Shown here: one piece after another, positions 30,572 through 34,633 of the stretch
Position numbering within the stretch: the first letter of the stretch is position 1
Layout: every line of letters begins with the position of its first letter
From: Aestuariivirga litoralis
GTDB taxonomy: Bacteria; Pseudomonadota; Alphaproteobacteria; Rhizobiales; Aestuariivirgaceae
NCBI RefSeq assembly: GCF_015714715.1
Contig: NZ_WAHS01000001.1
Coordinates: forward strand, 1,995,001-2,059,000
Reading direction: 5' to 3'
Length of the DNA stretch: 64,000 bases
The notes under the pieces: generated by a model
Seen by the model: the letters and a program-made list of their open reading frames with translations, nothing else
Told to the model about the DNA's origin: nothing
The model's database searches: none
Translations under genes and position numbers: made by a program

Positions 30572-32071
30572 ATGGCCAAGACCATTCAGCATTATATCGG
30601 CGGCGCGTTTGTGGACGGAAAGTCTGGCCGCAAGAGCCCCGTCTTCAATCCAGCCACCGGCGAACAGTCCGGCGAGCTTATTCTGGCCAACACCGCCCAG
30701 GTGGGCGAGGCCGTGGCCGCTGCCAAGAAGGCCGCACCCGATTGGGCCAATACAACCCCGCTGCGCCGGGCGCGCATCCTCAACAAGTTCCTGCGCATCC
30801 TGGAAGAGCGCACGGTGGAACTGGCCACAGTGATTTCCGAAGAACATGGCAAGGTGGTTTCCGACGCCATCGGCGAAGTGCAGCGTGGCATGGAAGTGGT
30901 GGAATTCGCCACCGGCGCCCCTCAGCTTTTGAAGAGCGAATTCACCGAGAATGTCGGCACGCGCGTTGACTCTTATGCCATGCGCCAGCCGCTCGGCGTT
31001 GTCGCTGGCATTACCCCGTTCAACTTCCCGGCCATGGTGCCGATGTGGATGTTTCCGATCGCACTCGCTGCTGGCAACACTTTCATCCTGAAGCCTTCCG
31101 AGCGTGATCCTTCCGCCTCACTGCTGTTGGCCAAGTGGCTGGAAGAAGCCGGTCTCCCGAAGGGCGTGTTCAACGTCGTTCACGGCGACAAGGAAGCCGT
31201 GGATGCGATCCTCAACCATCCCGATATTTCGGCTGTGTCCTTCGTCGGCTCCACGCCGATTGCCCGCTACATCTATGAAACAGGTACGCGCAACGGCAAG
31301 CGCGTGCAGGCTTTGGGCGGTGCCAAGAACCACATGATCATCATGCCGGATGCCGACATGGACCAGGCCGTCGATGCCCTGATGGGTGCCGCCTATGGTT
31401 CGGCTGGCGAGCGCTGCATGGCAATCTCGGTTGCCGTGCCCGTCGGCAAGAAGACCGCCGACACGCTGATCGCCAAGCTGGAGCCGAAGATCCGCGCGCT
31501 GAAAGTTGGCCCCGGCACCGACAAGGAGGCCGAGATGGGCCCGCTGGTCACCAAGCAGCATTTCGACAAGGTGACGGGCTACATCAATGAGGGCGAAAAA
31601 GAAGGCGCCAAGCTGGTCGTCGACGGCCGCGGCCTCAAGCTGCAGGGTTATGAAGGTGGTTATTTCGTCGGCGGCTCGCTGTTCGACAATGTGACGACCG
31701 ACATGAAAATCTACAAGGAAGAGATTTTCGGCCCCGTGCTCTCGGTGGTGCGCGTCGAGGATTACGGCACCGCCGCCAAGATGATCAACGATCATGAATA
31801 TGGCAATGGCACCGCGATCTTCACCCGTGACGGTGATGCGGCGCGCGAATTCGCGCACCAGATCCAGGTGGGCATGGTGGGCATCAATGTGCCGATCCCG
31901 GTGCCGATGGCGTTCCACTCTTTCGGCGGCTGGAAAGCCTCGCTGTTCGGCGACCATCACATGCACGGCCCGGAAGGCCTGCGGTTCTATACCAAGCTGA
32001 AGACCGTGACCTCACGCTGGCCCACGGGTATCCGTGCGGGTGCGGAGTTTGTGATGCCGGTGATGAAGTAA
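30572..32071 (+). CDS. mmsA: Methylmalonate-semialdehyde dehydrogenase (CoA-acylating)
   Basis: MmsA (IolA) converts malonic or methylmalonic semialdehyde to acetyl- or propionyl-CoA, the last step of inositol and valine catabolism. The 499-residue protein has the MmsA N-terminus ([20 protein letters not shown]), [19 protein letters not shown], the catalytic Cys in [17 protein letters not shown], and the C-terminal [19 protein letters not shown] found in this branch only. The ATG follows CAGGAGGAAAAC. It complements iolD and iolE at 16-19 kb. A strong terminator follows. Confidence 0.96.
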
Positions 32072-32099
32072 GAGTCGAGGTCTTACCCAATATCTCTCC

Positions 32100-32130
32100 A
32101 TGGGCGGGCTTGACCCGCCCATCTCTTTTT
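32100..32130 (+). terminator. Intrinsic terminator of mmsA
   Basis: ATGGGCGGG and CCCGCCCAT form a nine-base-pair GC-rich stem with a CTTGA loop, followed by TCTCTTTTT. It lies 28 bases past the mmsA stop. Confidence 0.9.
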
Positions 32131-32230
32131 CATCTCTCTTCTATTCCTTCGTCACCGCGGCGAAAACCGAGATCCCGCTTCAACCTCCGCCAGAAGATAT
32201 CAGTCGATCATCAAGGTCCTATCGTTCAAG

Positions 32231-32884
32231 TTAACTAGGTTTTCGAACTGCGTGAAATATCAGGGCAACCGCTTCAGGAATGTCGTTCAAATTTCTAACT
32301 TTGAAACGAGTGTTTCCACGATCATTCTTGATCTCTAGTTTTGAAACGTTGGCGAAGTGTCCCACGGTTCCCCTAACCGTTATCGAAAGCTCGTCGATCT
32401 GCGGTTGGACAATGACGTACCAAAAATTATCTGGTGTCTCGCTGAAATTTCTTGATTGCCCCCTCTTAAGGTTTCCTGGAGAGCGAGAACGTACTTCCTT
32501 CAAAAGCGCGAGCGCCGTTTCATGCATTTTCTGAGACATTTCTTTTTTGGTAAGGTCTAGAAACGCCCTGTCTCCTGGGCCGAGTAACGCAGTCTCAGCA
32601 TTGATCTCTCTAGGCTTCGTCACTGGGCGACCGGTCAAACTTTCTGATAAAAACCCGATCGTTCGAGACGATGTACCAACGTTGGTTGGAACTACGTTCT
32701 CAGCTTCAAATTGGAGCTGCCTCGTTTTGGATTCGAAAGAACAAGATTTGAATAGAATAGCGCTGGTTGCGCCAATCGAATTTTGCGCCTTTCCAAAATG
32801 GGCCATTTGATGCGGCGGAAGCTCAAACAACCAAATACCAGCAGAAAGCTCTTCTACGTCGCTTAGTGTCATAAGTAGGCCCAT
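32231..32884 (-). CDS. Hypothetical protein in AT-richer islet
   Basis: A 217-residue protein I do not recognise. The N-terminal 60 residues (ELSAGIWLFELPPHQMAHFG) look globular and the middle is polar with no membrane segment or signal peptide. The C-terminal 70 residues (FWYVIVQPQIDELSITVRG, FKVRNLNDIPEAVALIFHA) vaguely resemble small domains found at the ends of some nuclease-like or DUF5655-like proteins; this is a weak impression. Base composition and codon use (many AAA, TTT, AAT codons) are clearly AT-richer than in flanking genes, suggesting recent acquisition. The start is the ATG at 32884 or 32872. A tandem 12-mer array lies directly upstream and may regulate it. Confidence 0.6.
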   Translation of the reverse strand: MGLLMTLSDVEELSAGIWLFELPPHQMAHFGKAQNSIGATSAILFKSCSFESKTRQLQFEAENVVPTNVGTSSRTIGFLSESLTGRPVTKPREINAETALLGPGDRAFLDLTKKEMSQKMHETALALLKEVRSRSPGNLKRGQSRNFSETPDNFWYVIVQPQIDELSITVRGTVGHFANVSKLEIKNDRGNTRFKVRNLNDIPEAVALIFHAVRKPS

Positions 32885-32896
32885 CTGATACTCCTG

Positions 32897-32944
32897 TGCA
32901 GCTATCTGTAGATGTTTCTGTACAGCTAGCTGAGCAGATAGCTG
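32897..32944. repeat. Four tandem imperfect 12-mers upstream of the islet gene
   Basis: The sequence divides into four 12-base units, each ending in CTG: TGCAGCTATCTG, TAGATGTTTCTG, TACAGCTAGCTG and AGCAGATAGCTG. Units 1 and 4 are inverted copies of each other (CAGCTATCTG and CAGATAGCTG) and unit 3 contains the perfect palindrome CAGCTAGCTG. The array begins 13 bases before the start codon at 32884. This arrangement suggests a cooperative operator for a regulator bound to both gene directions. Confidence 0.6.
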
Positions 32945-32965
32945 AAGTCAAGCGAGGAATTGCTA

Positions 32966-32994
32966 TTGACAATTTCCCAATATAGGACTATATG
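32966..32994 (+). promoter_or_regulatory. Sigma-70-type promoter
   Basis: A perfect TTGACA at 32966-32971 is followed after 17 bases by TATATG (32989-32994), or after 16 by CTATAT. It faces the strong ribosome binding site and ORF at 33014-33302 and lies just beyond the 12-mer array. Near-consensus promoters are rare in this GC-rich window. Confidence 0.6.
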
Positions 32995-33026
32995 CCTCTT
33001 CGCACTGAACCTGAAAGGAGGGAACA

Positions 33027-33302
33027 ATGTGCACCGTGTTCCCATATTGCCGGATCAGTGTGCAGCGCCTGCTGGTGGTGATCCACACACTCATCGCGAC
33101 CGGGAGCTTCGTCGGTAGACCTCGGGCACTAAGACCCAAGCGCCTTCAATGGCTAACCAATATTGCCGCCGAATTTAAAATCGCTGCGTTCCCCACCCGG
33201 GCTTTGGCCCTTGTCTTCTCTTCACAGAATTCTGCATCGGGCCAGAGCCTGGCGGGAGCATTCCCTCCTGCTCACACGACTGGGAAAGCGGGGCTCATTT
33301 GA
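33027..33302 (+). CDS. Possible small protein (or sRNA body) with strong ribosome binding site
   Basis: A 91-codon ORF starting at an ATG five bases after GGAGG (AAAGGAGGG at 33014-33022), the best Shine-Dalgarno in the window, and downstream of a near-consensus promoter. The predicted product starts MCTVFPYCRISVQRLLVVIH, is basic, and has one weakly hydrophobic stretch; I recognise no family. Its TGA falls within the loop of the terminator hairpin (33284-33318). That is unusual and leaves open that the transcript works as an RNA, or that only a shorter leader peptide is translated. Codon use is not convincingly coding. Confidence 0.35.
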   Translation: MCTVFPYCRISVQRLLVVIHTLIATGSFVGRPRALRPKRLQWLTNIAAEFKIAAFPTRALALVFSSQNSASGQSLAGAFPPAHTTGKAGLI

Positions 33303-33318
33303 GATGAGCTCCGCTTTC
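33284..33318 (+). terminator. Strong hairpin closing the small transcription unit
   Basis: GAAAGCGGGGCTCAT (33284-33298) pairs with ATGAGCTCCGCTTTC (33304-33318) over 15 positions with one G-T pair and a five-base loop. It is followed by TTCCC, a poor U-tract, so it may be a terminator or a 3-prime stability element. It can form equally well in antisense transcripts. Confidence 0.6.
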
Positions 33319-33377
33319 TTCCCTTCCGCTCCATGTGATGTGGGGCGAACAAGGGTGGACTCGCGTCTTGTTGCGAA

Positions 33378-33517
33378 GAGCCCTCATCCGCCTTCGGCAC
33401 CTTCTCCCATTTCGCTTCGCTCAACGGGCGAAGGCGATCATCTCAAGCTTTGCAGCGCGCCGCCTTCGCCCGTCGCGTCAGCGATGGGAGAAGGTGCCGA
33501 CAGGCGGATGAGGGCTC
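33378..33517. repeat. RIME-like composite palindrome, long copy
   Basis: Terminal inverted repeats of about 32 bases (33378-33409 and 33485-33517) differ by a single inserted base: GAGCCCTCATCCGCCTTCGG and its continuation CACCTTCTCCCA are mirrored at the right end. Nested inside are inverted arms ACGGGCGAAGGCG and CGCCTTCGCCCGT around a short tip. The whole 140 bases can fold as one branched hairpin. It ends four bases before the dCTP deaminase stop. No coding capacity is evident. It is the most complete copy of the family in this window. Confidence 0.8.
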
Positions 33518-33520
33518 TTT

Positions 33521-34633
33521 CTAATGCGTGCCGACGATATACGGCTTGAAGTGCTTCGACAGCTTCAGGCCCTGCTTCTGGTAGTTCGAACCCAGCCCAC
33601 CGCCATAGACGACTTCTGGGGCTGCGGTCAGCGGTTCGTAGACCAACCTTCCGATGATCTGGGCGTCCTCCAGAATGAACGGCACTTCGTGGCTGCGCAC
33701 TTCCAGCACGGCTCTTGCGCCTTCGCCGTGGCCGCTCGCGTGGCCGAAGCCGGGGTCGAAGAAGCCGGCGTAGTGGACGCGGAATTCGCCGACGAGCGGG
33801 TTGTAGGGAACCATTTCGGCGGCGTGGGTGGGCGGGATTCTGACCGCCTCGCGGCTGGCCAGGATGTAGAACTGGTCGGGGTCTAGGATGAGCGAGGCTT
33901 TTTGCCAGATGGGTTCCCAGTAATCGAGGACCTCCAACGCGGCCTTCTTGTCGACATCCACCAGCGCCGAATGGCGCTTGGCGCGGAAGCCGATGGGTTC
34001 GTTCTGTTTGATGCCGGAGAGATCAACACTCAGCGCCAGGCCGCCATCGATGTTCACTTCGCCTTCGGTGATCAGCGGTTCCTTATTATGCAGTGCACGG
34101 ATCAAATCATCAGTGGCGAGCGAGGCGCCGCTGCGGAAACGGATTTGCGACAGGCGGGAGCCTTGGCGTGCAAGGATTGGGAACGTGCGCGGGCTGATCT
34201 CGGCATAGAGCGGGCCTTCGTAGCCTTCGGCCACTTTGTCGAATTCCTGCGCATAATCGGTGATCACGCGCGTAAAGATGTCGAGGCGGCCGGTGGAGCT
34301 TTTCGGATTGGCGGCGGCGGAAATGCCCTTGGGCAGTTTCAGGCTTTCCAGCAGCGGCACGATATAGACGCAGCCGGTTTCCAGCACCGTGCCGCCCGCC
34401 AAATCCATTTCATGCAGCACAAGACCCTTGAGGCGCTCGGCCACCGTTTGCTTCGGGCCGGGCAAGAATGACGCGCGCACGCGGTAAGCTGTTGGGCCGA
34501 GGCGCAAATCGAGGCTGGCGGGCTGCACCTGATCAGCATCCGCTTTATGCGCCAGTTTGATTATGCCTTGATCACACAATGTGCTGATTGCTGCGGCAGG
34601 CAGGATGCCGGGCTTCAAAAGATTTTCGTTCAT
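33521..34633 (-). CDS. dcd: 2-prime-deoxycytidine 5-prime-triphosphate deaminase, long alphaproteobacterial form
   Basis: Deaminates dCTP to dUTP for thymidylate synthesis. At 370 residues it is about twice E. coli Dcd (193) because it contains two tandem dUTPase-fold segments, the form usual in Alphaproteobacteria. Segment 1 shows QPASLDLRLGPTAYRVRASF and ANPKSSTGRLDIFTRVITD; segment 2 shows GEVNIDGGLALSVDLSG, RAKRHSALVDVDKK and NPLVGEFRVHYAGFFDPGFG. Whether the second segment is catalytic is unclear. The 164 bases upstream, shared with the divergent ABC transporter, contain an inverted repeat CAGAC-N8-GTCTG at 34722-34739. Confidence 0.93.
   Translation of the reverse strand: MNENLLKPGILPAAAISTLCDQGIIKLAHKADADQVQPASLDLRLGPTAYRVRASFLPGPKQTVAERLKGLVLHEMDLAGGTVLETGCVYIVPLLESLKLPKGISAAANPKSSTGRLDIFTRVITDYAQEFDKVAEGYEGPLYAEISPRTFPILARQGSRLSQIRFRSGASLATDDLIRALHNKEPLITEGEVNIDGGLALSVDLSGIKQNEPIGFRAKRHSALVDVDKKAALEVLDYWEPIWQKASLILDPDQFYILASREAVRIPPTHAAEMVPYNPLVGEFRVHYAGFFDPGFGHASGHGEGARAVLEVRSHEVPFILEDAQIIGRLVYEPLTAAPEVVYGGGLGSNYQKQGLKLSKHFKPYIVGTH

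Follow-up and report, generated by a model that had tools for sequence, protein, structure and literature searches.

Defence hotspots have reportedly been described in a study of P. aeruginosa. In E. coli, 18 defence hotspots lie in tRNA loci and the small RNA rybB is also a site, as far as the excerpts at hand of the corresponding study go (PMC10121019). The locus described here resembles these hotspots in its core position and its variable defence systems, and RNA genes can be the site in E. coli as well. It differs from the hotspots of these excerpts in that the site is a multicopy structured element with AT-rich DNA on its promoter side, that the modules looked at are small, and that no phage-type integrase was noticed by eye among the genes nearest the element. 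A second point of comparison is offered by the multicopy sRNAs and REP elements of Bradyrhizobium, where BjsR is present in 2-4 copies and Br-REP elements are short palindromes (PMC5082802). Like the element reported here, they are intergenic, occur in several imperfect copies per genome and include structured RNA; the available parts of that paper describe no translated frame, anti-Shine-Dalgarno (anti-SD) or defence-gene polarity, a comparison made by description and not by sequence.

The window, a stretch of 64,000 nucleotides from Aestuariivirga litoralis, contains a small islet between mmsA, which ends at 32071, and dcd, which ends at 33521 and lies on the reverse strand. The initial annotation had called the whole islet AT-richer. 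This holds for one half: GC content was 0.471 at 32080-32960, 0.549 at 32961-33330 and 0.621 at 33331-33520, compared to 0.588 for the window, so that the AT-richness lies mainly with a 217-aa gene and the right half is merely intermediate. In two relatives of the same genus (G020 and G013), the mmsA-dcd junction is only about 0.5 kb long and neither half is found there, while a different small ORF, presumably TerB-like, occupies the junction. The islet is two independent things, namely the 217-aa orphan gene (32231..32884, minus strand), delineated by its ORF, its homologues with their alignment and an AlphaFold2 (AF2) model, and one copy of an RNA element (32966-33318, within a repeat spanning 32950-33335). 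We consider it likely that the islet is a landing site beside this multicopy element and that the 217-aa gene is a defence-type module that landed there with its own operator, which would explain why the halves adjoin.

Every component that had been annotated for the right half, that is a promoter, a Shine-Dalgarno (SD), an ORF and a hairpin, was found in the sequence, all on the plus strand. The promoter (32966..32994) consists of TTGACA (32966-32971), a spacing of 17 nt and TATATG (32989-32994); most copies of the element carry TTGAC and some TTTAC. An automatic sigma-70 scan omitted this promoter (0 sites found, 1.0 expected), because position 6 of the -10 hexamer is not T. The promoter is followed by a strong SD, AAAGGAGGG (33014..33022), of which AGGAGGGAA from 33016 is complementary to 33261-33269, and by a 91-codon open frame with its ATG at 33027 (33027..33302), which spans the entire structured core and runs beyond the anti-SD. 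The core (33060..33189; covariance model R1) comprises a closing helix GCAGCG/CGCTGC, a variable hairpin, a CCTCGGGcactaagaCCCAAG hairpin and a GCCuucaauGGC hairpin. The anti-SD, TTCCCTCCT (33261..33269), is a 9-bp complement of the element's own SD and is paired in the MFE fold. A terminator-like hairpin, GAAAGCGGGGCTC...GAGCTCCGCTTTC (33284..33318), ends the element, and a similar hairpin is present in L058, L059 and L061.

That this unit exceeds a chance assembly is borne out by nine further copies in the same genome (ten in total), by covarying helices and by a conserved open frame. The nine other copies adjoin other genes than the 217-aa gene. Using RNAalifold and pair counts, we found that 13 of the 26 model pairs change on both sides with pairing kept, as in CTTGGG/CCCAAG of one copy, which reads CGCAGG/CTTGCG in another. 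Pairing cells made up 96.7% of the R1 alignment; shuffles reached 86.8%, and sliding the alignment gave no more than 49.2%. R1 was built from 29 copies; the window copy, itself among them, matched with 123.8 bits. L067 (not a true copy) and L062 had been left out before the first profile, and alignment A2 drops 15 of 44 copies, which were divergent or partial (L013, L014, L016, L033, L085, L087), identical to another (L089), near-duplicates (L006, L012, L078, L080) or enlarged by inserts (L007, L008, L088, L090). By DNA search, the element was detected in 12 of 36 other genomes of the genus and in 0 of 24 genomes of other families. At E 0.001, R1 matched 28 of the 37 genomes of the genus and, in another genus of the same family, one genome. 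Across the order, it matched 19 of 397 genomes from 9 genera including the own genus; the E-values of R1 are rough, and the order-wide matches outside the genus are weak to moderate (best 4.8e-10), a few of them partial. The 33.0-33.3 kb stretch, for which the initial annotation had considered degeneration in relatives, is instead a conserved repeated element. In G020, about 12 dispersed and mutually similar copies of a repeat of about 450 nt (L147-L157) have only the core middle in common with the element and are not an open frame.

Identity with a known RNA family was rejected, as the element copies searched gave no Rfam match at the gathering score; one serC match falls outside the element. 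A REP or MITE identity, for which a short non-coding palindrome or terminal inverted repeats would be expected, was likewise dismissed, because the element has a promoter, an SD and a core of several helices, and because 40 of 42 copies keep the frame and 34 of 42 have a length from start to core end that is divisible by 3. A search of open-access papers with a few terms found no literature on this element or on defence hotspots that occupy one side of a multicopy RNA. The element is thus apparently a structured and translated RNA family without an Rfam entry.

Homologues of the 217-aa protein were found by a scan of genome contigs at 11 loci scattered over the Alphaproteobacteria, 10 of them full-length and with 45-55% identity; at L055, the frame is apparently disrupted near its end. 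Among 60 relatives, 36 of them from the same genus, no homologue was detected at E 0.001, and among 397 genomes of the order the family is present in two, the window's own and G364, which harbors a distant member. At L070:1360-2276, this relative of 234 aa is inserted where a mutase gene that we take to be ecm-like has its 3' end, and about 53 bp of that end are duplicated on the far side of the inserted gene with 87% identity. In agreement with the initial annotation, which had listed the 217-residue ORF as unrecognised, the protein has no Pfam family, and nothing of note was obtained from Pfam, PHROG (one chance-level row, E 0.31), NCBIfam or PADLOC. Against 11 members of the family including the 217-aa protein, PADLOC gave 0 families at E up to 1, and a single member of the 11 hit an unrelated Pfam model at E 0.15. 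A phage or plasmid origin was rejected, as phage and plasmid collections gave no match, and none of 126 pattern matches in viral contigs is a relative of the protein.

These distributions bear on the earlier proposal that the halves form a functional divergent pair sharing an operator. In such a pair, the 217-aa protein could act as an effector or a toxin, and its RNA or peptide antitoxin would come from the 33.0-33.3 kb unit. The start codons are indeed divergent and 143 bp apart, the promoter is strong-looking, the RNA is structured, and toxin-antitoxin-like genes occur at the site in other element copies. However, R1 has no match at E up to 0.1 at 12 loci with homologues of the protein, different genes adjoin the nine other element copies of the genome, and none of the 12 other genus genomes with the element by DNA search has the protein. 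Homologues therefore occur without the divergent unit, and the two halves have separate distributions instead of the joint conservation that had been anticipated. As the halves are not co-conserved, the proposed pair fails, and we regard it as highly improbable.

Considering the element as a unit of its own, the frame from the SD-linked start (ATG, GTG or TTG) stays open across the core in 40 of the 42 copies counted, two partial ones (L016 and L085) of the 44 aligned having been left out. Each other frame carries stops in 38 of the 42 copies. The length from start to core end is a multiple of 3 in 34 of 42 copies, and in those 34 it spans 162 to 264 nt. Where the stop was located (38 copies), it never fell within 30 codons past the core, compared to 31 of 84 cases in the other frames. 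No open frame is present in L033 and L087 or in the repeat type of G020. No codon-level selection on the peptide was seen over 52 within-group pairs, as pN/pS was 0.94 in this frame and 0.92 and 0.95 in the others, a test that is weakened by the RNA structure constraining all frames.

The SD may be controlled by the 3' tail of the same RNA. Among the 34 in-frame copies, Watson-Crick pairing of the SD region with the 3' tail extended, in the longest duplex, over 7.0 bp on average, compared to 5.1 with shuffled tails. The copies' own SD/tail pairs outscored permuted ones, as 115 of 5000 permutations were as high for these 34 copies, and 29 of 5000 when only the 26 motif-bearing copies were taken. 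Two-sided changes were observed in the window copy and L082, where a shorter G run meets a shorter C run, and in L083, where GGAGGAG meets CTCCTCC. Eight copies without the motif count against the pairing; in L061, L062, L064 and L007 the motif is present yet the pairing extends over only 5 or 6 bp. Judged from pairing and frame conservation, a translation switch is possible, in which the element, as a separate unit, would pair its SD with the 3' anti-SD and ribosomes crossing the open frame would disrupt this pairing. In self-sequestering toxin mRNAs such as hok, a remote part of the transcript covers the site where ribosomes bind, as would be the case in the element. The element differs from them in that no peptide constraint was seen at a pN/pS of about 0.94.

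In the window's genome, the promoter-side neighbours of the element copies looked accessory. We scored the GC content of 800 bp on each side of the copies and called a flank AT-rich at GC below 0.52, a limit that was chosen with the first set in view and then kept. In the first set of 35 copies, mean GC was 0.536 on the promoter side and 0.618 on the opposite side (Wilcoxon 3.9e-6), and 14 of 35 promoter-side but 0 of 35 opposite flanks were AT-rich. A held-out set, for which shorter flanks down to 500 bp were allowed, gave 8 of 33 compared to 1 of 33 (Wilcoxon 4.6e-5); both Wilcoxon values are too optimistic because the element copies are non-independent, with loci recurring across genomes, among them those whose 3' genes we take to be ndk and lepA. 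In a set from other families, AT-rich flanks numbered 5 of 19 on the promoter side and 0 of 19 opposite, although the median shift was not significant (Wilcoxon p 0.26). Copies with short flanks were dropped (12 of 47 in the first set, 7 of 40 in the held-out set and 1 of 20 in the other families), and because the contigs of draft genomes frequently end at the element, not every copy can be scored. Taken together, 27 of 87 promoter-side flanks and 1 of 87 opposite flanks were AT-rich, while 60 of the 87 copies had no AT-rich promoter flank.

The genes within these flanks were then compared with PADLOC, taking one or two genes from each of 26 of the 27 AT-rich promoter flanks (L125 had no suitable ORF). 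Clear matches were obtained at 15 of the 26. They comprised a Pycsar cyclase plus effector, PycC and PycTM (L093), HEC-06 (L095), PDC-M30A (L096), a Type II methyltransferase with an HNH enzyme (L098), Shedu (L107), PDC-S35 (L109), a dCTP deaminase (L131), PDC-M34A (L133), PDC-M41A (L172), an REase with a methyltransferase (L173), PD-Lambda-5 (L183), PDC-S31 (L200), DarTG (L218), NsnA (L219) and a type VI retron (L220). Two flanks gave weak matches (L094 and L119) and nine, the window among them, gave none (also L115, L118, L179, L182, L195, L198, L221 and L223). In four less AT-rich promoter flanks, the result was none for L097, L126 and L128 and marginal for L091 (E 8e-4). On the opposite side, 1 of 20 genes from 19 copies had a match (2OG model, E 2e-8), in a comparison that is unmatched, as the promoter-side genes came from AT-rich flanks and the opposite-side genes are core-looking. 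Defence genes are thus enriched on the element's promoter side, although not universal. Since AT-rich DNA and defence genes recur on this side, the 217-aa gene appears to occupy a recurrent landing zone for defence genes, and the islet's halves look like neighbours by location rather than partners. We propose that the multicopy, apparently translated element would mark a genomic position for accessory modules on its promoter-side flank, which would be small and often phage-defence or toxin-antitoxin-like, and here would be the 217-aa gene with its own operator. Downstream of the element, similar sequence is found at L098, L101, L113, L124, L125, L133, L135 and L170 in many genus genomes, and several of these stretches hold a gene for a small Cys-rich protein.

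The same one-sidedness could arise by no special mechanism if intergenic regions tolerate insertions and selection removes 3' cargo on account of its transcription from the promoter of the element. The polarity does agree with the direction of that promoter, and several cargo genes do belong to toxic classes; several element copies, however, have a terminator-like hairpin, and 42 ORFs of the window, as a small control from one window, showed no upstream excess of AT-rich flanks (0 upstream, 1 downstream). We view this explanation as possible but somewhat doubtful.

How cargo might enter was addressed by comparing recurrent loci. At the ndk locus (5 genomes) and the lepA locus (4 genomes), the element and the 3' gene are retained and the 5' side varies in most cases, although L179 and L200 have part of it in common. 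At the lepA locus, in L117, L182 and L192, the conserved left part stops at one point, which is the end of the same upstream gene. In L117 (G029), the last 194 bp of the upstream gene of the lepA element were found a second time inside the variable stretch. Among the loci compared, such duplicated, att-like gene 3' ends occurred in L070 and L117 only. These two cases suggest that entry might proceed by recombination with homologous flanks, while the window has no such duplication and no direct repeat flanking its 217-aa gene. Reading the cargo as integron cassettes with attC sites was rejected, as no integron integrase exceeded the TIGR02249 cut-off in the 37 genus genomes; sub-threshold tyrosine-recombinase matches were present in all 37 and likewise in all 14 controls.

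Alternatively, the RNA element might be the mobile end of a cassette that moves together with one promoter-side cargo gene. The absence of both halves from the mmsA-dcd junction of G020 and G013 would fit, as would the dozen or so dispersed copies of a related element in G020, transposase-like genes (presumably IS1595-like) on the promoter side at L106, L165, L170 and L229, and one cargo class, which we take to be TcmP-like plus DUF5131-like, whose members in G000 and G010 adjoin element copies at separate loci. However, in the ndk and lepA regions it is the element that stays and the 5' side that changes. The missing integron integrase and the lack of direct repeats at the 217-aa gene also argue against movement as a cassette, and element-like sequence at the far end of the cargo, for which copies were compared with their own promoter-side flank, was limited to 12-24 bp in 3 of 26 copies (24 bp in L125, 16 bp in L133 and 12 bp in L183; 23 had none). 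We therefore consider a mobile cassette unlikely, and return to the landing-site reading.

The putative landed module carries its own regulatory region. Operator-like inverted-repeat half-sites, CAGCTATCTG, TGTACAGCTAGCTG and CAGATAGCTG, lie at 32899..32944 over the -10 region and the 5' leader of the 217-aa gene, next to a -35-like TTGACT on the minus strand (32946..32951). The tandem 12-mer array annotated earlier at this place amounts to only 1.9 copies in TRF (32923-32945) and is better described as part of this inverted-repeat operator array. Among 10 homologue promoters, 8 have a TTGAC hexamer before the operator, followed by TCTG/CAGA inverted repeats across the -10 region, and the TCTG-NN-CAGA inverted repeat is kept in distant homologues as the operator of the family. 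Exact TCTGNNCAGA was found in 8 of 12 homologue promoters, whereas shuffles gave a mean of 0.05 and a maximum of 2, and with one mismatch allowed it was found in 11 of 12. The window promoter has no exact TCTGNNCAGA but two one-mismatch sites, while the L070 promoter has neither exact nor one-mismatch sites and instead contains TCTGCAGA repeats. In a control stretch from -300 to -200, TCTGNNCAGA was absent from the 10 loci compared, and genome-wide the two-site operator pattern matches this place alone. The predicted operator at the gene's own promoter is thus conserved, as would be expected of a self-regulated DNA-binding protein. The 217-aa protein is probably kept low by autorepression, binding TCTG-NN-CAGA over its own -10 region.

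AlphaFold2 with an 11-row alignment returned a model of the 217-aa protein with pLDDT 84 and pTM 0.54, in which a beta-rich N-terminal domain (residues 1-80) is followed by a C-terminal domain (about 102-217) with a YdhG-like and, less clearly, MotA-C-like predicted fold. The C-terminal half is also the most conserved part of the family alignment. In VIA-align, residues 102-217 matched YdhG with Z 9.9 and 9.5 over about 100 residues, and MotA-C with Z 7.1, a middling level by the scale of the tool, which cautions that values below 8 may reflect a widespread arrangement. Foldseek ranked MotA-C first (E 2.6e-3), with nothing under 0.001. MotA-C is DNA-binding according to PDB entry titles, and from the predicted YdhG/MotA-like fold, DNA binding by the 217-aa protein is plausible. 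The likeness to the double-wing domain at the C-terminus of T4 MotA and to YdhG (DUF1801) is limited to this predicted fold, as no YdhG/DUF1801 or MotA-C sequence-profile match was seen for the family. In comparison to both, the 217-aa protein is encoded by a solitary gene with its own operator and has an additional N-terminal domain. When residues 1-80 were predicted alone (pLDDT 89), none of the 995 PDB chains aligned with them reached Z 2 and Foldseek gave nothing below 0.001, from which a new fold does not follow. In the proposed mechanism, the C-terminal domain would bind the operator and the N-terminal domain would carry the activity.

At E 1e-8, no neighbouring ORFs were common to the homologue loci besides one pair each of what we take to be a recombinase and a resolvase, for which reason the 217-aa gene looks solitary. 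Of ten neighbour proteins picked by eye at five homologue loci, seven had PADLOC matches, at three of the loci. These were a methyl-directed restriction enzyme and a UvrD-type helicase at L055, PDC-M33A at L056 and L057, and, also at L057, a methyltransferase and a reverse transcriptase VI that is split over two ORFs; the picked neighbours at L050 and L054 gave no match. A retron type VI-like RT is found at L220:308-1511, beside an element copy, as well as at L057:3342-4633, beside a 217-aa homologue and split in two ORFs; its HTH partner was checked at L220 only.

The 217-aa gene could instead encode a plain DNA-binding regulator or another accessory protein with no defence role. The conserved operator and a predicted fold similarity that includes a transcription factor domain would suit a regulator; less in keeping with one are a solitary gene with a very sporadic occurrence (2 of 397 order genomes), its position in a defence-rich site, and defence-type genes near 3 of 5 homologue loci, which were chosen by eye. 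We regard a plain regulator as conceivable but not probable. The 217-aa gene is probably an uncharacterised defence-type gene under its own control. This is how its protein is best read, with the chances for a defence function itself evenly balanced, as the assignment is one of guilt by association for a protein without a PADLOC match.

A bolder version, which we hold to be quite improbable, would make the element a new class of RNA gene with its translation state as the signal, where ribosome transit over a frame without a conserved peptide would hold the SD free of the 3' anti-SD. The upstream flank would then be an active acquisition site for defence modules that works without an integrase, providing at least 10 addressable defence slots, and the 217-aa protein, in one of these slots, would be an autoregulated defence protein of a new kind. 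Should the polarity hold among strains, the RNA model could serve as a search handle for defence candidates, and genes of unknown function directly upstream of element copies, including the 217-aa family, would be enriched for them. The element also poses a question of its own, as a structured, multicopy and apparently translated RNA of which the frame, not the peptide, appears conserved.

A repeat of another type lies outside the RNA element. At 33381-33514 of the window, there is an imperfect palindrome of 134 bp, MITE/REP-like and of the form AGAGCCCTCATCCGCC...GGCGGATGAGGGCTCT. The genome contains more copies of it, some complete and some partial (26 matches, both strands counted).
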